From contig CALVKR010000001.1 in assembly GCA_944332995.1 (NCBI GenBank), forward strand, positions 62,001 to 126,000: a stretch of 64,000 nucleotides of DNA, given 5' to 3'. A program made the translations under genes and the position numbers. Under the pieces are notes generated by a model, which saw nothing but the letters and a program-made list of their open reading frames with translations, made no database searches and had not been told where the DNA came from. Below, one piece after another: positions 1,439 to 54,120 of this stretch. The first letter of the stretch is position 1, and each line of letters opens with the position of its first letter. The stretch is from an uncultured Clostridia bacterium (GTDB lineage Bacteria; Bacillota; Clostridia; Christensenellales; CAG-917).

Positions 1439-3202
1439 CTACCTCTTGTCCTCTATATCGGATGCTCTTAATTTTCTTTGCAAAGCGACTATTTGCTGAA
1501 TAAGGTTTGATTTTTTAGCCATATCAGTTTCGTCTTCATACGTTTTCGTCAACTGCGCTATCCTCTCCGTAAGATAGGCGTTGGCAAGTTTTAACGCACA
1601 ATCGGCATAAAATCTTTCTTCAACGCGTTCGTCGCTGAGATTTTCATAATTGTTTATAACGGAGTTCATTTCGTCCGACTCCTCGACGTGGTCGAAAAGC
1701 AGACCTATCGTTACCGCTTCGCCGTTATCCTTTCTCGACTTGACAAAGTCGAAAATCTCTTTATGTATTTCCGATTTAAACCACTCTCTGTCAAGTAAAG
1801 ATATGTCGGCGTATTCTTTGTTTTTTAGCATGGCGTTTAAAACAAATCTTGCCGCCTTCAAATCGACGTCGCAAATTTCAAGAGAGGAATTTTTTACGGA
1901 TATTTCCTTTTCCTCAACGGGAGATACCATCTGTTCGTAAAGGGAATCCGTCGAAAGTCCGCACTTTTTTGAAACAAGTTCGACGTAAACGCCCCTCTGC
2001 GCCTCGTCTTTGATTTCCGATAATATTTTTACCGCTCCCGAGGCATATTTCGCCCTGCCGCTGACAGAGCGCATGTCAACGCCGTTTTCTATCTGAAGCA
2101 ATTTATAATCGTATGCCGGCATTGCATCCTTAAGCAACTTAAAAAACGCTTCCGTGCCATCCTTTCTCATCATATCGTCCGGGTCGTATCCGTCAGGCAA
2201 AGTGATGACTTTTACATCCATATCCGCATTCAAAAGAGGGTCGATATTCCTTATCGCCGCCTTTCTGCCTGCCTCATCGCCGTCGTAACATACGTACACG
2301 TTGGGACAAAGTCTTTTAAGCTGCCTTGCCTGACCGTCGGTAAGAGCGGTGCCCATTCCCGCAACGGCGTTTTTTATGCCGTGGGCGCCGAGAGATATGA
2401 CGTCCATATATCCTTCGACTAAAATTATATAATCTAATAAGGTGTCCTGCTTGAATTTTTTTACGAAATTTACGCCGTAAATAGTTTTGCTTTTATCAAA
2501 AAAGACAGTGTTGACACTGTTTTTATATTTACCTACGTCCTTCTCTCCGTGATATATTCTTCCGCCGAAAGCTACAATTTTGCCCATTTGATTGAATATG
2601 GGCACGATAATTCTGTTTGCGTAAAAATCTCTGCCGTAAGAGCAAACGCCGCAGGTTTCCATTTCTTTTTCGGAAAAGCCCTTGCTGTTCAGATAGTTTA
2701 TAACGCCCTTTTCGCTGTCGGAAAGGCCTATACCGTAAGTCTTGAGCGTTTCGTCGTCAAGAGCTCTGTCGTGCAGATAGCGCATTGCGTCCTTGCCTCT
2801 GACGGGGTCTCTTAACACACGGTAATAATATCTGCCTGCCTCGGTGAGCAAATTTAAAAGTCGCTCGTTTCTGGATTTATCTTTATCTACTAAAACAGAA
2901 CTGAACTCGGGAAGAATCATTCCCACCTTATCAGCCAAAACCTTGCAGGCGTCGATAAAATCGACGCTTTCCATTTCCATGACAAATTTAATGACGTCGC
3001 CCGACACGCCGCAACCGAAACAGTGATAATACTGCTCGTTTTCGTTTACGCAAAAAGAAGCCGTCTTTTCATGGTGAAACGGACAGCAACCGAAATATTT
3101 GCCGCCTTTTTTTTGAAGTGGTATGTATCGCGATATAATTTCTACGATATCGCACTTATATTTTAATTCCTCTAACCAATTAGAATCGAAACCTCTGTTC
3201 AT
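1439..3202 (-). CDS. dnaG: DNA primase DnaG
   Basis: A 587-residue primase that makes RNA primers at the replication fork. The start was set at the ATG at 3200-3202 (MNRGF...), which has AAAGGAA about 8 bases upstream; the open frame runs 31 codons further but that extension lacks family features. An N-terminal CHC2 zinc finger is visible (C40, H43, C61, C64). A TOPRIM catalytic core follows at about 250-325, with VEGYMD and the metal-binding CYDGDEAGR segment, and then a helicase-interacting C-terminal region. It is the first gene of the dnaG-rpoD-trmK unit, divergent from the ylbJ-like gene. Confidence 0.96.
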
Positions 3203-8860: not shown

Positions 8861-9721
8861 CTATCTTTTTCCGAAAGTGGCAAATGCCGTGCAACCTTGC
8901 GGAAGAACGATGCCCTCGGAAGTTTTAAGCCCTATTTCGTCGGAATCTATCTCACACTTGGGCAAAGTGAGAGTTAAAATGTTTTTCATAACCGTCGGCT
9001 GAAGCCCGGTAGTATATGAATTGAGGCAAACAAAGAGCGGTTCGTCACTTAGGAGTTTTGCGACAAGTTCGATAAGGTCGCAAACGGAATCTTCTATCTT
9101 CCACTTTTCGCCGTTAGGTCCCCTTCCGAAACTCGGAGGGTCCAAAATTATGGCGTCGTAGCGTTTGCCTCGTCTTAATTCCCTTTCGCAGAATTTGAAG
9201 CAGTCGTCTATAATATATCTGACAGGCGCTTTCTCAAGCCCTGAAAGACGGACGTTTTCACCGCATCTCTCTACCATAGCTTTTGCCGAATCCACATGGC
9301 AAACCGAAGCTCCTGCGCTAAGACAAGCCACGGTTGCGGCTCCCGTATATCCGAAAAGGTTGAGGACGGATATGTTCCTTCCCGCCCCCTTTATGAGATC
9401 TATCATTCTCGCCCAATTTACCGCCTGTTCGGGGAAAAGCCCCGTATGCTTAAAGCCCATAAGTTTTAACTTAAACTTTAAGTTTCGCCAGCCTATGAAA
9501 AATTCTTCGGGCGTGTCTTTTAAATAATCCCAATATCCACCGCCGGTGGAACTGCGCTTATAGACGGCGTTTATTCCCTTATAGCTTCTGAGCGGCTTGG
9601 AGGGTTTCCAGATGACCTGAGGGTCCGGCCGTATAAGCAAAAGATTGCCCCATCTTTCGAGTTTTTCGCCGTTTCCGGTCGCTATTACTTCAAAATCTTT
9701 CCATTCGTCGGAATATTTCAT
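8861..9721 (-). CDS. RlmI/RlmK-like SAM-dependent rRNA methyltransferase
   Basis: A 286-residue class I methyltransferase of the COG1092 type (23S rRNA cytosine methyltransferase-like). SAM motif I is NLFGYTGAATVA and the catalytic motif IV is ILDPPSFGRG. It lacks the N-terminal PUA domain of full-length RlmI. The ATG at 9719-9721 overlaps the ileS stop codon in an ATGA junction; the longer upstream reading frame is internal to ileS. This points to translational coupling with ileS. The target base is not proven. Confidence 0.85.
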   Translation of the reverse strand: MKYSDEWKDFEVIATGNGEKLERWGNLLLIRPDPQVIWKPSKPLRSYKGINAVYKRSSTGGGYWDYLKDTPEEFFIGWRNLKFKLKLMGFKHTGLFPEQAVNWARMIDLIKGAGRNISVLNLFGYTGAATVACLSAGASVCHVDSAKAMVERCGENVRLSGLEKAPVRYIIDDCFKFCERELRRGKRYDAIILDPPSFGRGPNGEKWKIEDSVCDLIELVAKLLSDEPLFVCLNSYTTGLQPTVMKNILTLTLPKCEIDSDEIGLKTSEGIVLPQGCTAFATFGKR

Positions 9722-12700
9722 TTCTTCTTGACCGATAAAGTAACGGCGTTGCCGTTTATATCCCACTCTTTCGTATATCCGTCGACTGTTTCACAAGCGT
9801 CCAAAGCGAGAACGTCTTTTAAATATTTTTTCTCGTCAAGCACCTGCTTGGCAAGTCCTTCCGCTTTATATCCTACCGAGATGTGGTCGGTAACTTCAAA
9901 TCCCGCCTCTTTACGCATCGTCTGAATTTTTGAAACGATTTCTCTTAGCACGCCCTCTTTAATGAGTTCGTCGTTTAATTCGGTATCCAAAATTACGGTG
10001 ACCGAGCCGTCGGTTTCCGAAGAGTATCCCTCTTTCGTCTTGACGGATATGAGAAGGTCGGATTCGGCAAATTCTACGTCCGAGCCGTCGATTTTCGTTT
10101 TATAAACTCCGCCGTCCCTTACCGCTTCGACTACTTCCTTGCCGTTGCAGGAAGATAAGAATTGCCTTATTCCTCCGAGCAATTTTCCGTATTTGGGTCC
10201 GAGCGTCTTGAGCTGCGGCTTTAACTCGTAGGTTATATAATCGGCGCTGTTGTCGGAAATGACGCACTCTTTGACATTCAGTTCGTCCTCTATAAGACCT
10301 TTCAGCTCGACGGGCAAATCCTTATGTCCGTTATACATAAGTTTTGAAAGCGGCTGTCTGTTTTTGATGTTCGACTTAGCTCTTGCGCTTCTGCCCAAGA
10401 CGACGACTTTTAAAACGTCTTCCATACCCTTTTCAAGTTCGGAATTTATATACGTTTTATCCGATACGGGGAAAGAAGCAAGGTGCACGCTGAGCGGAGC
10501 GTCCTTTTCAAACGGACGGACGAGATTTTGATAAATGGATTCCGCCATAAAAGGAGTATAAGGCGCAATGACGAAAGACAGAGTCTTGAGCACGGAATAG
10601 AGCGTCGTATAAGCTGCGGCTTTATCGTCCGTCATATCGCTGCCCCAAAATCTTTCTCTCGAACGGCGAACGTACCAATTTGAAAGCTCGTCCACAAACT
10701 CGCCGATTTCCCTTGCAGTTTCCGTTATCTTATATTCGTTAAGTCCGTTGTCGACAAAATCGATAAGGCTGTTGAGTTTTGAAAGTATCCACTTATCCAT
10801 TATGGATAGCTTTTGATTTTTAAGGCTGTATTTCGTCGGGTCGAATTTATCGATTTCGGCATAGAGTACGAAGAAAGCGTAGGTATTCCAAAGCGTGCCC
10901 AAAAACTTTCTTTGTCCTTCCGAAACAGCTTCGGGATAGAATCTCGACGGAAGCCACGGCGCACTCGAGGTGTAGAAATGCCAACGGGTGGCGTCGGCGC
11001 CCTGCTTGTCGAGCACCGTCCACGGGTCGACGACGTTGCCTTTGTGTTTAGACATTTTTATGCCGTCTTTATCGTTGACGTGTCCGAGCACTATACAGTT
11101 TTTAAACGGCGATTTTCCGAACGCCAAAGTAGATACGGCAAGCAAGGTATAAAACCAACCTCTTGTCTGGTCTACCGCCTCGCTTATGAAATCGGCAGGA
11201 AAATATTGCTTGAACTTGTCGGCGTTTTCAAAAGGATAATGCCATTGAGCAAACGGCATAGAGCCGCTGTCAAGCCAGCAATCGCACACTTCAGGCACTC
11301 TGATCATTTTACCGCCGCATTCGCAGTCCCACGTTACGGCGTCGATATAAGGACGGTGAAGCTCGATATCCTCTTTCATACCCGAAAGTTTTTTGAGTTC
11401 CTCTCTGCTTCCTATAACGTGCTTTTTGCCGCACTTGTCGCATATCCAGATAGGCAATGGCGTTCCCCAATATCTCTCACGGGATATACCCCAGTCTATG
11501 ACGTTTTCGAGGAAGTTGCCCATTCTGCCCGTTCCGATTGTAGGAGGCATCCAGTTGACCGAAGCGTTCGATTTCAAAAGAGCCTCTTTGACTTCCGTCA
11601 TTTTTATAAACCAGCTCGAGCGAGCGTAGTATAAAAGCGGAGTGTCGCATCTCCAACAGAAGGGATAGGAGTGCGTGAACATAAGTTCTTTAAAAAGAAG
11701 TCCTCTGTCCGAAAGATTTTTTATGATAAGTTTGTCGGCGTCCTTAGCAAAAAGCGAAGTGAATTCGCCCGAGCCCTCGACAAACTTTCCTCTTTCGTCA
11801 ACTTGCTGAACAAAAGGAAGTTTGTAACGCTTGCCGACGTTGGCGTCGTCCTCACCGAATGCGGGGGCGATATGAACGATACCCGAGCCGTCGGTAAGAG
11901 TGACGTAACCGTCGCAAGTGATATAGAACGCCTCTCCCTCTTTGACTTTGGCAAAGTCGAAAAGAGGAACGTATTTGCTGAATTCGTACTGCTTGCCCTT
12001 TTTCGTTTCCACTTTTTCATAACTGTCGAAAAGCGAGTCGATAAGAGCGTCCGCCAAAATATAATACTCGTCGCCCACCTTGATTTTGGTATAGTCCTCT
12101 TTGGGGTTCATACAAAGAGCGACGTTTGACGGCAAAGTCCACGGAGTCGTCGTCCAGGCGAGGAAATAGGTGTTGTCCTGTCCTACCGCCTTGAATTTGA
12201 CGAATATAGACGTTTCGGTAACGTCTTTATATCCCTGTGCCACTTCGTGAGAAGAAAGCGCCGTTCCGCAACGGGGGCAATAAGGCACTATCTTATGACC
12301 TTTATACAAAAGTCCCTTTTCGTCTACTGTCTTTAAAAACCACCAGACCGATTCGATATAGCTGTCGTGATAGGTAACGTAAGGATTTTTCATATCCGCC
12401 CAATAGCCTATACGGTCGCTCATCTTTTCCCATTCCGACTGATATTTAAAAACCGACTCTTTACATTTTTTTATAAAAGGCTCAATGCCGTATTTTTCAA
12501 TCTCCGGCTTTCCGTCTATGCCGAGCTGTTTTTCCACCTCCAGCTCAACAGGCAAGCCGTGGGTATCCCAGCCCGCTTTTCTCAATACGTTGTAGCCCTT
12601 CATCGTCTTATAACGAGGAATGATATCCTTCATGACACGGGTGAGAATATGACCTATGTGCGGCTTACCGTTAGCCGTAGGAGGTCCGTCATAAAAAGTG

Positions 12701-12834
12701 AAAGTCTTTTTGCCTTCGTTTAAAGCAACGCTCTTTTCAAAAATCTCGTTTTCTTTCCAGAAAGCGAGTATCTCTTTTTCTCTCTCGACAAAATCGAGAT
12801 TCGTGTCAACAGGTCTGTACATATAAATCCTCAA
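9718..12834 (-). CDS. ileS: Isoleucyl-tRNA synthetase, type 2 (long, KMSKH)
   Basis: A 1038-residue class I aminoacyl-tRNA synthetase that charges tRNA-Ile. The HIGH motif is intact (59-62) and the second signature reads KMSKH near residue 600. An editing domain with the WTTTPWTLPSN stretch is present. The length, the KMSKH motif and the C-terminal layout fit the eukaryote-like type 2 IleRS, which as a class is less sensitive to mupirocin than the usual bacterial form. MYRPVDTN at codon 5 is an alternative start. No T-box leader is visible upstream, unlike many Bacillota ileS genes. Confidence 0.95.
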   Translation of the reverse strand: MRIYMYRPVDTNLDFVEREKEILAFWKENEIFEKSVALNEGKKTFTFYDGPPTANGKPHIGHILTRVMKDIIPRYKTMKGYNVLRKAGWDTHGLPVELEVEKQLGIDGKPEIEKYGIEPFIKKCKESVFKYQSEWEKMSDRIGYWADMKNPYVTYHDSYIESVWWFLKTVDEKGLLYKGHKIVPYCPRCGTALSSHEVAQGYKDVTETSIFVKFKAVGQDNTYFLAWTTTPWTLPSNVALCMNPKEDYTKIKVGDEYYILADALIDSLFDSYEKVETKKGKQYEFSKYVPLFDFAKVKEGEAFYITCDGYVTLTDGSGIVHIAPAFGEDDANVGKRYKLPFVQQVDERGKFVEGSGEFTSLFAKDADKLIIKNLSDRGLLFKELMFTHSYPFCWRCDTPLLYYARSSWFIKMTEVKEALLKSNASVNWMPPTIGTGRMGNFLENVIDWGISRERYWGTPLPIWICDKCGKKHVIGSREELKKLSGMKEDIELHRPYIDAVTWDCECGGKMIRVPEVCDCWLDSGSMPFAQWHYPFENADKFKQYFPADFISEAVDQTRGWFYTLLAVSTLAFGKSPFKNCIVLGHVNDKDGIKMSKHKGNVVDPWTVLDKQGADATRWHFYTSSAPWLPSRFYPEAVSEGQRKFLGTLWNTYAFFVLYAEIDKFDPTKYSLKNQKLSIMDKWILSKLNSLIDFVDNGLNEYKITETAREIGEFVDELSNWYVRRSRERFWGSDMTDDKAAAYTTLYSVLKTLSFVIAPYTPFMAESIYQNLVRPFEKDAPLSVHLASFPVSDKTYINSELEKGMEDVLKVVVLGRSARAKSNIKNRQPLSKLMYNGHKDLPVELKGLIEDELNVKECVISDNSADYITYELKPQLKTLGPKYGKLLGGIRQFLSSCNGKEVVEAVRDGGVYKTKIDGSDVEFAESDLLISVKTKEGYSSETDGSVTVILDTELNDELIKEGVLREIVSKIQTMRKEAGFEVTDHISVGYKAEGLAKQVLDEKKYLKDVLALDACETVDGYTKEWDINGNAVTLSVKKK

Positions 12835-12859: not shown

Positions 12860-12889
12860 ATTATAATTTCATAAATTAAAAAAAGTCAA
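12860..12889 (-). promoter_or_regulatory. Promoter of ileS
   Basis: On the minus strand TTGACT (complement at 12884-12889) and TATAAT (12860-12865) are separated by 18 bases, about 25 bases upstream of the ileS start. The short leader leaves no room for a T-box. Confidence 0.7.
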
Positions 12890-12993
12890 ACGAATACAAA
12901 TTGTTTTAACAAATTGTTTTTGCAAAAAAAAGCGAAACCATTTAAAACGCATTTCTTAGAAAATTATTTTTATATACCGCTCTATGCTCGATA

Positions 12994-13367
12994 TATTCAA
13001 AAACACCCTGCCTTAAGAAGTGTTTTTGAATACCGCTTTGCACTCGATATATTCAAAAACACCCTGCCTTGAGAAGTGTTTTTGAATACCGTTTTTGCAC
13101 TCGATATATTCAAAAACACCCTGCCTTAAGAAGTGTTTTTGAATACCGTGCAGCCTCGATATATTCAAAAACACCCTGCCTTAAGAAGTGTTTTTGAATA
13201 CCGCTTTATGCTCGATATATTCAAAAACACCCTGCCATGCAGAGTGTTTTTGAATACCGTGCAGCCTCGATATATTCAAAAACACCCTGCCTTAAGAAGT
13301 GTTTTTGAATACCGCTTTATGCTCGATATATTCAAAAACACCCTGCCATGCAGAGTGTTTTTGAATA
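12994..13367 (-). repeat. Seven tandem 55-57-bp hairpin units at the 3' end of SRP RNA
   Basis: Seven copies of an inverted repeat with 13-bp arms TATTCAAAAACAC / GTGTTTTTGAATA begin at 12994, 13050, 13107, 13162, 13218, 13273 and 13329. The 13-base centres are of two kinds: one containing CTTAAG, and one (units 5 and 7) whose CCTGC/GCAGA extends the stem. The dimer 13146-13256 is repeated perfectly at 13257-13367 (111 bp). Spacers alternate between CCGCTTTATGCTCGATA-type and CCGTGCAGCCTCGATA; the latter copies the last bases of the SRP RNA. The first unit after SRP RNA may act as its terminator. Confidence 0.9.
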
Positions 13368-13634
13368 CCGTGCAGCCTCGATCGATACGAACTACCGAAG
13401 CGGAAACTGTGCAGGTAACTCCCTCAAAGCTTCCTTGTGGCACACGCTAAAATCTGCTTAGTGCTGCTGCGGTCAAGCTCTGACACGGTTCACAGCATAG
13501 CATTGCACAAGACCTTGTTATCAACGTCCCTTGCACAGCGCAACCTTCCATAGATCGCACCTCAATCGGCATTCGACACCGCTGTAGCGGATTGCGGTTT
13601 ACAGGGCACCGCTAGCTCCCCGTCTAGCACGGCT
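13367..13634 (-). ncRNA. ffs: Signal recognition particle RNA (large bacterial type, with Alu domain)
   Basis: About 268 bases. The 5' part matches the Alu domain of Bacillus scRNA almost base for base (GCCGTGCTAGACGGGGAG, then AGCGGTGCCCTGTA and GCAATCCGCT). The 5' GCCGTGC pairs with the 3' GCACGGT, closing the molecule. The S-domain core GTCAG ... AGCAGC is recognised at about 13461-13487. With Ffh the RNA targets membrane proteins to the Sec machinery. The apical loop between GTCAG and AGCAGC reads AGCTTGACCGC rather than a GGAA-capped hairpin. The gene lies between ileS and pdxK. Confidence 0.95.
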
Positions 13635-13725: not shown

Positions 13726-14535
13726 ATGAATAAGCGTATATTAACTGTGCAAGATTTTTCATCTATAGGACGTTGCTCGCTCACGAGCGCCATTCCCGTC
13801 CTTTTTGCGGCGGGACACGAGGCTGTTGCGCTTCCCACCGCCCTTTATTCCACTCAAACGGCTATCCCCGATTTCACTTTCAAAGACCTCAGCGATTTTA
13901 TTTTGCCCGCCTACAATCATTTCAAAAAGTTAGGCATTAAATTCGATTGCCTATACACGGGTTTTTTGGGCACGATTAGCGCCGTCGATTCTGCAATAGA
14001 AATTGCTTCCGATTTAAAATCGAAGGGCACGCTCATTGCAATCGATCCTGCCATGGCGGACAACGGCAGCTTATACGCCGTATTCGACAACGAATACTAC
14101 AAAAAAATGCTCTCTCTCGTAAAACTTGCCGACATACTCATGCCAAACTTTACCGAGGGCAAAATGCTTTCCGGCATCAAAGAGGATTTACTCCCGACTA
14201 AAGAAAGTGCCGTTTCGATTTTAAAAAATCTCAAAAAACAGGGCTTTGAAAAAGTCGTGCTTTCAGGCATATCCGACAAGGATAAATGCGGAACCGCCAC
14301 TCTGTATAACGGAGAAATAACTTTTCAATTTAACAAACGCTTTGACCTTAACATTCACGGCGCAGGCGACGTGTTATCCGGCGTATTTTTGGCGACTCTG
14401 TTAAAAGGCGAAGATTTTTGCGCTTCCGTTCAAAAGGCTGTCGATTTCGTGCATGACTGTATTGACGTTACCGTCAAAGAGGGACACAACCTTAAATACG
14501 GGCTCGTCATCGAACGATTTTTAAGCTATCTTTAA
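13726..14535 (+). CDS. pdxK: Pyridoxamine/pyridoxal kinase (PfkB/ribokinase fold)
   Basis: A 269-residue ribokinase-fold kinase of the PdxK/PdxY type, which phosphorylates pyridoxal-family vitamers to feed the PLP cofactor pool. The N-terminus VQDFSSIGRCSLT matches the pyridoxamine kinase signature, DPAMADNG contains the substrate/metal region, and HGAGDVLSG near residue 210 carries the catalytic Asp and anion hole. Complete in length. It is divergent from SRP RNA and monocistronic. A hairpin AAGCTAT/ATAGCTT overlaps its stop codon. Confidence 0.9.
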   Translation: MNKRILTVQDFSSIGRCSLTSAIPVLFAAGHEAVALPTALYSTQTAIPDFTFKDLSDFILPAYNHFKKLGIKFDCLYTGFLGTISAVDSAIEIASDLKSKGTLIAIDPAMADNGSLYAVFDNEYYKKMLSLVKLADILMPNFTEGKMLSGIKEDLLPTKESAVSILKNLKKQGFEKVVLSGISDKDKCGTATLYNGEITFQFNKRFDLNIHGAGDVLSGVFLATLLKGEDFCASVQKAVDFVHDCIDVTVKEGHNLKYGLVIERFLSYL

Positions 14536-14953
14536 AAATAGCTTATTAGTCGCATATCTTAGCTTTTACCCCTTTAAACTAAATTCCGCCAAGAGGTATA
14601 GCGACGCAAAGAAGTATAGCACGCCCCGATAAACGGGTAAATATTGATTTTTTAAAATTATATGCTTTTGTTTTAAGACATTATCTATAGGCTTTAAACG
14701 CCGAATAATCTTCTGTTCTAAGATATTATCTATCGGCTTTAAACGCCGAGTAATCTTTCATTTTAAGACATTATCTATAGGCTTTAAAACGCCGAATAAT
14801 CTTTTGTTTTAAGACATTATCTATAGGCTTTAAAATGCCGAATAATCGAAGATAAAATTTATATTTTATCTTTTTTTTATTGTATTTTATAAAAATTTGA
14901 CCGATTTTTGATTTTCGAGTAAATTTTACGGCGCTCAATTCATAACTTGAATT
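14536..14953. repeat. Intergenic spacer with four 45-46-bp tandem repeats (14671-14850)
   Basis: Four copies of a unit beginning TTTTAAGACATTATCTATAG start at 14671, 14716, 14761 and 14807. Each holds GGC-TTTAAAC-GCC and an outer ATTAT/ATAAT pair, so each can fold as a small hairpin. Unit 2 is the most diverged. The rest of the spacer is AT-rich. A TTGACC / TAAATT pair (14897-14925, 17-base spacer) is a possible promoter for the downstream murI. No gene is seen. Confidence 0.8.
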
Positions 14954-17054: not shown

Positions 17055-17692
17055 CATATAGAAACTATCATACTTTAACTTAGTTTTGGCTATTAGCCTA
17101 TTTGGTTATAAATATTTATGTTTTTACCTGCCTTTGAAATATGTAATATATTTCGTCACACATCCCTCTTTAACACTCTTCAAACCTGTCTTTATTCTTA
17201 AATCTATCCTATCTTTGTTCTTATACCTCCCCTATCTTTGCTCACATTTCCCTCACATCTTTGGACATATACCTCGCATATCTTTGACCTAAAGCCTTTA
17301 CCCGTTTTTGGATAGGCATAACGGTTTTTCAACATAATAATGCAATAGTCAGAACACCATTTGAAACCGTCATATCAGTTGCGCCTTTGCCGTTTCCGTC
17401 AAACGGTTTTAAAATTTAAAAAGACGCAAACAGCCGTTTGCGTCTTTTATTTAAACTGAGTATTTTATTTAAACAAAATCTTTTATTTAAACTGAGAATT
17501 TTATTTAAGCAAAATCTTTCATTTAAACAAAGTTTTTTATTTAAACAAAGTTTTTTATTTAAACAAAATATTTTGTTTAAACAAAGTCTTGTATTTTAAA
17601 CAAGTATGTCAATATAAATATGCCATAAAATTTTTGTGCGGTTTATACCTATTATTATTTGTGAATGGCAATCGCACATTTAAAACATGGTG
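17055..17692. repeat. Gene-free spacer with terminator and nine 18-bp tandem repeats
   Basis: A bidirectional terminator, AAGACGCAAAC / GTTTGCGTCTT, lies at 17421-17446 and probably serves the WG-repeat gene on the minus strand. From 17445 to about 17606 there are nine 18-bp units of the form TTTTATTTAAACAAARTC, each containing the palindrome TTTAAA. The stretch 17055-17400 is pyrimidine-rich with no coding signal. Confidence 0.8.
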
Positions 17693-40789: not shown

Positions 40790-41790
40790 AAATTTTTATA
40801 TAAATTTTTCTACAAATTTTCGACAAAATGCTTTATATTCGAAAAATAGCATTAAACGCCACCTTAAAGCCACTCTTAGCAGAACAGAAATGCTTTAAAT
40901 TTATACCGTTGTCGGCTATGACAAGGTAGAATGTTTCAGGCAAATGCACAGCATAAGACAAAACCGCAATTTGTATGCAATTCGGCCTGTATGTGCAACC
41001 GCAGACTATAGCCAACTCGGTCTATAATTCAGCCTATTGTTCAACCGCAACGTATAACCGCTTCGCTCTTTAATTCAGCTTAATGTGCAACTGCAACGTA
41101 TAACCGCCCCGCTCTTTAATTCAGCCTGTATGTGTAACTGCAAAGTATAACCGCCCCGCTCTTTAATTCAGCCTGTATGAGCAACCGCAACGTATAGCCA
41201 CTCGGTCTATAATTCGGCCTGCATGTGCTACCGCAACGTATAACCGCCCCGGTATAATTCTTCGGAATGCGCTGTGTTTCGTCAATGAAGTTGCAATAGA
41301 CTACCGTGGGCATATAATGCAGTCTATCCTTATACCGCAGGCTAATATCACCACTATGTCGGCATGGGGTAAATTTATCTTTGCGTTTTAGGATAAAATA
41401 AAAAACTTAGCATTATATGCTAAGCCTGAAACTTTAAAAATCATTGCTTGAAAATCAATGCAAAACTATAAATTTTAAAAAACTGAAACGAGATTTTACA
41501 AACCTGAGGTTTTAACCATACCTGCAAAATTTAATATAAAATCCGATATTATTTATATACCTTACGCTTATGTTAAACTTTACCGTTCCTATAATGGGTT
41601 CCGTTCTTATAAGTCTTCCGTTCCTATAAAGTCTTCAGTTCTTATAATGCTTCCGTCCTTATAAGAGTTGAGTTATTATCTATAATTGCGTTATTATCAA
41701 ACGATGCGCCGTTATTTAACCTCTCGCAGTTATATAATCTTCCGTTTTGATATAACAACTTTTATAAAAAATTCCGATTTGAGAAATTTT
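40790..41790. repeat. 1-kb gene-free spacer with two tandem-repeat arrays
   Basis: Six units of 46-47 bp (start CAACCGCAACGTATAACCGC) begin at 40996, 41042, 41088, 41135, 41182 and 41228; the last is truncated. A second array has the word CCGTTCYTATAA at 41583, 41601, 41618, 41636 and 41653, a period of 17-18 bp, with diverged copies to about 41755. Short open frames in the arrays are by-products of the repeats. No gene or terminator is evident. Confidence 0.85.
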
Positions 41791-53407: not shown

Positions 53408-54120
53408 GTTTTACTCTCCTTATTCAAATACTAACATTTTTATTTATAAATTTCAATAGGTTTTCAAAAAATTTTTACAAATTATCATATTATTTTTTAC
53501 AGTTATTGTAAATGAAAAGTATCGACGCTATCTGCCTTAAAACGAAATAAAATACTTGAAATATTATAAACATTACTTTAGCTTATATGCGCTTTTCCCA
53601 AGTCGCCACGCTTTTTACTAAGCATACCCTCCACTCTTTGCATAAGCCGTGCCCGTCGCAGACGGTTCCTCAACGCTCCGAATGCGGTTTTTTTCACTTA
53701 GGAATATGACCGGCTATTTGCCTGTTGTGCTACCCTCGCTTTTTTACAAATTATATGCTCCGTCCCTTTTCTTAAGCCGTGCCCGTCGCAGACGGCTCCT
53801 CAACGCTTCGAATATGGTTTCTTTTTTTCACTTAGGAATATGACCGGCTATTTGCCTGTTGTGCTACCCTCGCTTTTTTACAAGTTATACGCTCCGTTCT
53901 TGGCATAAGCCGTGCCCGTCGCAGACGGTCCTCGTTTTTGCCTCAATAACTTTTGTATATAAATTATACTCTGCCTTTTATAAAACGCCTTAGTGCCAAA
54001 AGGATTGCTTTTATGAAAGTGCCGTCATAATACAGACAGTGCCATAAAAATTAAAAAATAAAGTTAAATTTTGTTGTCAAACAGATTTTAATTTGATATA
54101 ATGACAAAGCTTTAAAAAAT
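53408..54120. repeat. Promoter region of the Hsp70/SNF2 operon and a 130-bp tandem repeat
   Basis: On the minus strand TTGAAA (complement at 53451-53456) and TAGTAT (53428-53433) are 17 bases apart just before the GTG. Between 53643 and 53937 two and a quarter copies of a unit of about 130 bp occur (starts 53643, 53773, 53906), beginning AAGCCGTGCCCGTCGCAGAC and containing ATATGACCGGCTATTTGCC. Within it CCGTC-GCA-GACGG forms a small hairpin. The copies are over 90 percent alike by eye. Possible non-coding RNA or repeat family; no gene seen. Confidence 0.7.
54074..54102 (+). promoter_or_regulatory. Promoter of tRNA-Thr
   Basis: TTGTCA (54074-54079) and TATAAT (54097-54102) with a 17-base spacer, 18 bases before the tRNA. 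Confidence 0.75.

Follow-up and report, generated by a model that had tools for sequence, protein, structure and literature searches.

A seven-unit array of terminator-type hairpins at the 3' end of an SRP RNA gene, probably grown by local tandem amplification

How does an RNA gene come to be followed by a row of hairpins interspersed with copies of its own last bases, and does such a row matter to the cell? The question is raised by a locus within a window of 64,000 nucleotides, the whole stretch of DNA that we analysed, which is part of contig C1 of the draft genome (1.54 Mb, 12 contigs; G000) of an uncultured Clostridia bacterium (GTDB lineage Christensenellales; CAG-917). Most bacteria cannot do without SRP RNA, whose gene is single-copy in this genome. 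The gene (13368-13632, minus strand) is of the large bacterial type, spanning positions 1-256 of the Rfam model RF01854 (Bacteria_large_SRP) at full length with 173.8 bits against a gathering score of 60; when SRP-derived repeats were sought elsewhere in the genome, the sole match at E < 0.1 was the gene itself. Co-directional with it lies ileS, encoding isoleucine--tRNA ligase (9718-12834, minus strand; TIGR00392, 971.4 bits, cut-off 621.4), and the array occupies the space between the two. A promoter-like site, TTGACT-18-TATAAT (11/12 consensus; 12860-12889, minus strand), separates the array from ileS, in a region where nine such sites were seen against 2.6 expected. Upstream of SRP RNA is a divergent, pyridoxamine kinase-like gene (13726-14535, plus strand), which scored 211.1 bits with NF005491, under the cut-off of 231. 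A search with this kinase returned ten loci, the best 59% identical, all from genomes already compared and thus providing no independent cases. We dismissed the plus-strand open reading frame 13133-13450 as a coding gene; it is a mechanical frame running through the repeats. As a separate observation, an unverified faecal phage record (MT835484.1, 34896-35113; L277) contains a stretch that matches 217 nt of the window's SRP RNA at 75% identity, and represents either a phage-borne SRP RNA or host contamination.

The array begins at the first base past the SRP RNA 3' end. As the initial annotation had proposed, it contains seven units: pattern search and TRF located seven terminator-type 39-nt palindromes on the minus strand between 12994 and 13367, with a period of 55-57 bp, the RF01854 match ending at 13368. 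Each unit has the form TATTCAAAAACAC-N13-GTGTTTTTGAATA. TRF described the interval 12967-13382 with periods of 56 (7.2 copies) and 111 (3.7 copies), and ATTCAAAAACAC, with up to one mismatch, occurs 14 times in the window, always inside the array (chance expectation 1.2). The minus strand of 12967-13632, a stretch that takes in SRP RNA itself, folds 14.3 standard deviations below dinucleotide shuffles, none of 20 shuffles being as stable. The hairpins, all on the minus strand, fall into two types. Hairpin 1 (13329-13367), directly at the SRP 3' end, and hairpin 3 (13218-13256) are identical in sequence and fully paired, at -23.2 kcal/mol. The other five have lost the GC-rich top of the stem and reach -14.0 kcal/mol: hairpin 2 (13273-13311), the identical hairpins 4 (13162-13200), 5 (13107-13145) and 7 (12994-13032), and hairpin 6 (13050-13088), which is one base off hairpin 2. 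Hairpin 7 is the final unit and is followed by a degenerate tail down to 12967. All differences between hairpins are at positions 15-18 and 20 of the 39; the outer 13-bp stem is identical in 7/7 units, which is partly an effect of recency and of a search pattern that fixed this stem. Relaxing the pattern to three mismatches between the arms brought up no extra unit, only arms pairing in reverse across spacers.

The spacers, 16-18 nt long, differ in their middle only. In the direction of SRP transcription, with A, B and C denoting spacers, the order is SRP end, h1, B, h2, A, h1, B, h2, A, h2, C, h2', C', h2, B'. Spacer A includes the final 15 nt of SRP RNA, so that the exact 15-mer ATCGAGGCTGCACGG occurs three times, with sense starts at 13382 (the gene), 13271 and 13160 (two spacers). 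The initial annotation had several spacers reproducing the last 16 bases of SRP RNA; exact copies of the gene end do exist, but they comprise 15 bases, the 16th being different, and are confined to 2/7 spacers. The remaining five spacers, of B and C types, have in common with A only TATCGAG and CGG. Likewise, GCACGG, the part able to pair with the SRP 5' end, is kept in 2/7 spacers, and TATCGA is present both before and after the module of SRP end and hairpin.

The repeat structure carries a record of how the array may have grown. A 111-bp dimer had been described as perfectly repeated; it is exact, but it is part of a longer exact repeat of 140 nt at an offset of 111, the longest in the array, whose copies lie at 13243-13382 and 13132-13271 on the minus strand (read 13382-13243 and 13271-13132). 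The first copy starts within the SRP gene's own last 15 nt, indicating that the latest duplication or exchange involved the SRP gene itself. The units are thus head-to-tail and homogenised stepwise, as in a minisatellite, with TRF periods of 56 and 111 and the 140-nt repeat. Taken with the 15-mer in two spacers, the 140-nt repeat bears out the earlier proposal of a recent duplication of the SRP 3' terminus together with its hairpin, and at the level of sequence these features support an origin of the array by tandem duplication. Growth would have proceeded by slipped replication or unequal crossing-over, possibly at a hairpin flanked by short repeats (TATCGA), beginning with steps of 55-57 bp and ending with a dimer of 111 bp whose exact repeat extends into the functional SRP gene.

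We also looked for comparable structures outside the locus. In 464 kb of own sequence (the window plus 400 kb partly picked around RNA genes), other arrays with a period of at least 25 exist, many of them coding-looking or AT-rich, and no other hairpin array of equal strength was found there. Four further tandem arrays lie in the window, at 14665-14847 (45 bp), 17443-17607 (18/36 bp), 40979-41248 (46 bp) and 53636-53933 (134 bp), none with a tie to an RNA gene here. The SRP array is not a CRISPR array: its spacers are 16-18 nt and recur, as opposed to unique spacers of phage size.

Could the hairpins serve in termination? A scan for consensus terminators called none in the region, since the U-run is itself paired, to the A-run on the 5' side, and lies inside the 3' arm of the stem rather than after it. 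By eye, hairpin 1 reads CACUCUGC-AUG-GCAGGGUG, followed by UUUUUGAAUA. Hairpins flanked by A and U runs can act as terminators in both directions. In relatives, too, a hairpin immediately follows SRP RNA, so hairpin 1 sits at the terminator's place and is presumed to be the original SRP terminator. RNA polymerase leaving SRP RNA would then stop at hairpin 1; hairpins 2-7, if active, would be back-up two-way terminators shielding ileS from leak-through, with ileS presumably transcribed from the promoter-like site that precedes it. As a general cause of such arrays, protection of a co-directional gene is unsupported: in nine array-bearing genomes a crude longest-ORF test placed the next gene convergent in five, co-directional in two (G000 and G007) and unclear in two. 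Nor, judging from the sequences, should selection for a terminator bank have given five of seven hairpins without a stem top. Since the neighbour is convergent in 5/9 genomes and most hairpins here have decayed, the extra copies are probably close to neutral and retained as harmless.

To place the array among its relatives, we compared SRP loci across the family and beyond. The initial annotation had asked how copy number compares in related strains, and it does differ: the only congener compared, G001, has one hairpin after SRP RNA against seven here, unrelated in sequence to the palindrome of the window, although its SRP RNA is identical at 245/266 aligned positions. SRP RNA was found in 35 of 43 genomes of the family, and downstream copies of its 3' end are present at 10 of the 33 testable loci. 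This figure combines a test in which copies were sought of the terminal 100 nt of the RNA together with the next 45 nt (8/30 positive) with three further loci examined with a different query and cut-off (positive in G006 and G018, negative in G004); G019 and G041, whose sequence ends within 2 nt of the SRP gene, are left out. Outside the family, 2 of 80 loci, hand-chosen for spread over 20 families, were positive, both from family f17, and one of these (G173) repeats the terminator only. Fisher's test for 8/30 against 2/80 gives p = 0.0004, uncorrected for relatedness or for the choice of the 80.

The copies are diverse in extent. They start at about position 171-173 of SRP RNA in G006, G007, G011 and G042, at 189 in G018, at 220-223 in G012, G014, G020 and G025, and 15 nt from the end in G000; these varied start positions point to repeated independent events. 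G012, G014, G020, G025 and G006 have an inverted copy of the SRP 3' strand past the terminator. At loci L038, L039, L040, L042 and L044 such an inverted copy is followed by a direct one, and together they make up a large quasi-palindrome, potentially folding as a long rod. In G012 (-25.4 and -25.4 kcal/mol) and G025 (-28.3 and -28.0 kcal/mol) the copied hairpins differ in sequence yet stay fully paired, and for this reason may still be in use.

Other stable RNA genes of the family were searched with the same test. Downstream 3'-end copies occur at 13/30 tmRNA loci, where most of them begin within the T-loop, 18-21 nt before the end of the RNA; RNase P RNA was positive at 2/30, both matches being limited to the terminator. 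Among 65 distinct tRNA and tmRNA genes, a biased set in that most were included because a query matched there, 29 had copies by a mismatch test, at least one of them (L206 tRNA-Val) merely a neighbouring tRNA gene. Also on L206, a tRNA-Arg gene (3008-3084) is followed by two repeats, 85-88% identical, of a 32-34-nt part of its terminator region, neither of which includes the tRNA end. In nearly all tRNA and tmRNA copies the first base is the C of the T-loop TTC, and most copies are preceded by a conserved insert of about 50 nt, of which one type ends in GCTCCGCTGTAAGG and another has CGCTATTCCGTCGC...GCTCCTTA. Of 395 genomes from the order, 53 contain the latter pattern, the reversed control being zero in all. 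The window's genome has it at four places, none on contig C1 and none at SRP RNA. By eye, 3'-end units follow tRNA-Ser, tRNA-Ala and tRNA-Leu, three out of 12 tRNA genes located in the analysed part of this genome; the mismatch test catches Ser and Leu only. Up to four units stand in tandem, at one tRNA-Cys.

The tRNA and tmRNA units measure about 130-330 bp and consist of a 3'-end copy from the T-loop onward, the terminator, a partial inverted T-arm and then the hairpin insert of about 50 nt, as at tRNA loci L262, L249, L250, L254, L247, L283 and L284, at tmRNA loci L083, L075 and L063, and in G000 at L200, L213 and L215; no gene was seen inside them. As read from these sequences, the conserved insert and the T-loop start suggest a tiny, undescribed site-specific element. 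Just two genes of the phage-integrase family are present in the window's genome, and one is most similar to Xer recombinases but falls below every curated cut-off. One of the two, on contig C8 (49101-49577; L279), lies about 5 kb from tmRNA (C8:43867-44223); a second tmRNA 3' end was not found in C8:30001-50000.

In our view the array in the window most probably arose, with a chance of about two in three, when the final 15 nt of SRP RNA together with its own 39-nt terminator palindrome were recently amplified in tandem on the spot, the extra copies serving at most as near-neutral back-up. The T-loop findings raise a different reading, in which a site-specific mini element built the array by accretion, each insertion adding a gene 3' end and a terminator. 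Units at tRNA-Ser, tRNA-Ala and tRNA-Leu of the same genome and the 13/30 tmRNA loci whose copies mostly begin 18-21 nt from the 3' end speak for it, as does the SRP RNA of G346 in family f17, where about 50 nt of the same type as the tRNA/tmRNA T-loop insert lie between two copies of the SRP 3' end and terminator (L131, 1-623). In the window, however, the 55-57-bp units consist of SRP end and hairpin alone, without this insert, the SRP copies of the family start at varied positions rather than at one, and a 55-bp circle is an implausible recombination substrate. Thus, even given that prophages insert into pneumococcal ffs (PMC8637289), we regard accretion of such an element as an unlikely origin of this array. 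Somewhat less likely still is a selected role in RNA, whereby a run-on string of hairpins would tune 3'-end formation of SRP RNA, or stability, or else be a binding site for some protein or nuclease. The invariant outer stem would agree with such a role, its identity being in part due to recency, and so would the higher frequency of SRP-end copies in the family than outside it; against this, the SRP end able to pair with the 5' end survives in so few spacers, hairpin tops have decayed in most units, the congener lacks an array and 23/33 family loci lack copies.

Two further readings were weighed. The genome is a draft, and in G042 the SRP duplication flanks an N gap, so a metagenome assembly might have inflated or scrambled the copy number; but the differences between units are ordered (A, B and C spacers, two hairpin types), the array lies deep within a contig of 290,778 bp, and similar arrays are found in other assemblies, which leaves an artefact very improbable. 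We give least credence to a dispersed palindromic repeat family of the REP or MITE kind that landed by chance behind SRP RNA. The presence of a 39-nt palindrome in tandem speaks for it, but the stem pattern with up to three mismatches matched the 1.54-Mb genome at seven places, all in the array (reversed control, 0), and the exact pattern had no match in genome and viral collections from which close records of the own genome were possibly left out, so these brought no second strain to light.

Local tandem amplification, the preferred reading, joins kinds of event that are familiar in themselves, tandem duplication being known and double terminators likewise. In arrangements of the rrnB T1-T2 type, a strongly transcribed stable RNA gene is followed by at least two hairpin terminators; the SRP array is similar in having several hairpins behind a stable RNA gene, and differs in having seven near-identical, tandem-duplicated copies that include the RNA end, with the U-run inside the stem. 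Minisatellites, or VNTR, have homogenised head-to-tail copies whose number varies between relatives, as is the case here; in the SRP array, unlike these, what is repeated is a functional gene end, with one exchange extending into the gene proper. A further parallel is given by the repeats of integrative elements. Dehalococcoides ssrA islands show RNA-gene 3'-end copies in a row and insertion in the T-loop (PMC3146451), and tRNA gene fragments left by integration are widespread (PMC9897764). As here, 3'-end copies are lined up downstream and, at tRNA and tmRNA genes, start in the T-loop; those repeats mark kilobase islands, many with an integrase (PMC3146451, PMC9897764), whereas here a unit takes up 55-57 bp at SRP RNA or about 130-330 bp at tRNA and tmRNA genes, and none was seen to contain a gene. 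The ffs gene of S. pneumoniae is a prophage attachment site (PPH015), again with an SRP RNA gene as insertion target and a repeated core; it is of the small type and receives a whole prophage, with no array described (PMC8637289). In literature of partial coverage, with most subscription papers outside it, we found neither SRP 3'-end/terminator arrays nor the tRNA mini element reported. The differences from known repeats at RNA-gene ends are the minute size of the unit and the absence of a gene within it.

By itself, the SRP array is probably of little consequence, and the wider tRNA/tmRNA pattern is the more promising lead. A tentative extension, which we hold to be doubtful, is that an undescribed process in the order keeps adding short modules (an RNA 3' end and terminator, with or without the T-loop insert of about 50 nt) behind SRP RNA, tmRNA and tRNA genes; it would be driven by minute elements without an integrase, mobilised by a host recombinase, and the array of the window would be one of its compact end products. 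In this lineage, RNase P RNA is followed by copies of its own end less often than are SRP RNA, tmRNA and some tRNA genes. Because exchanges with the array extend into the 3' end of SRP RNA, the final bases of that gene can be rewritten by the array. The lineage offers a testable case of gene-end accretion by something far smaller than known integrative elements.
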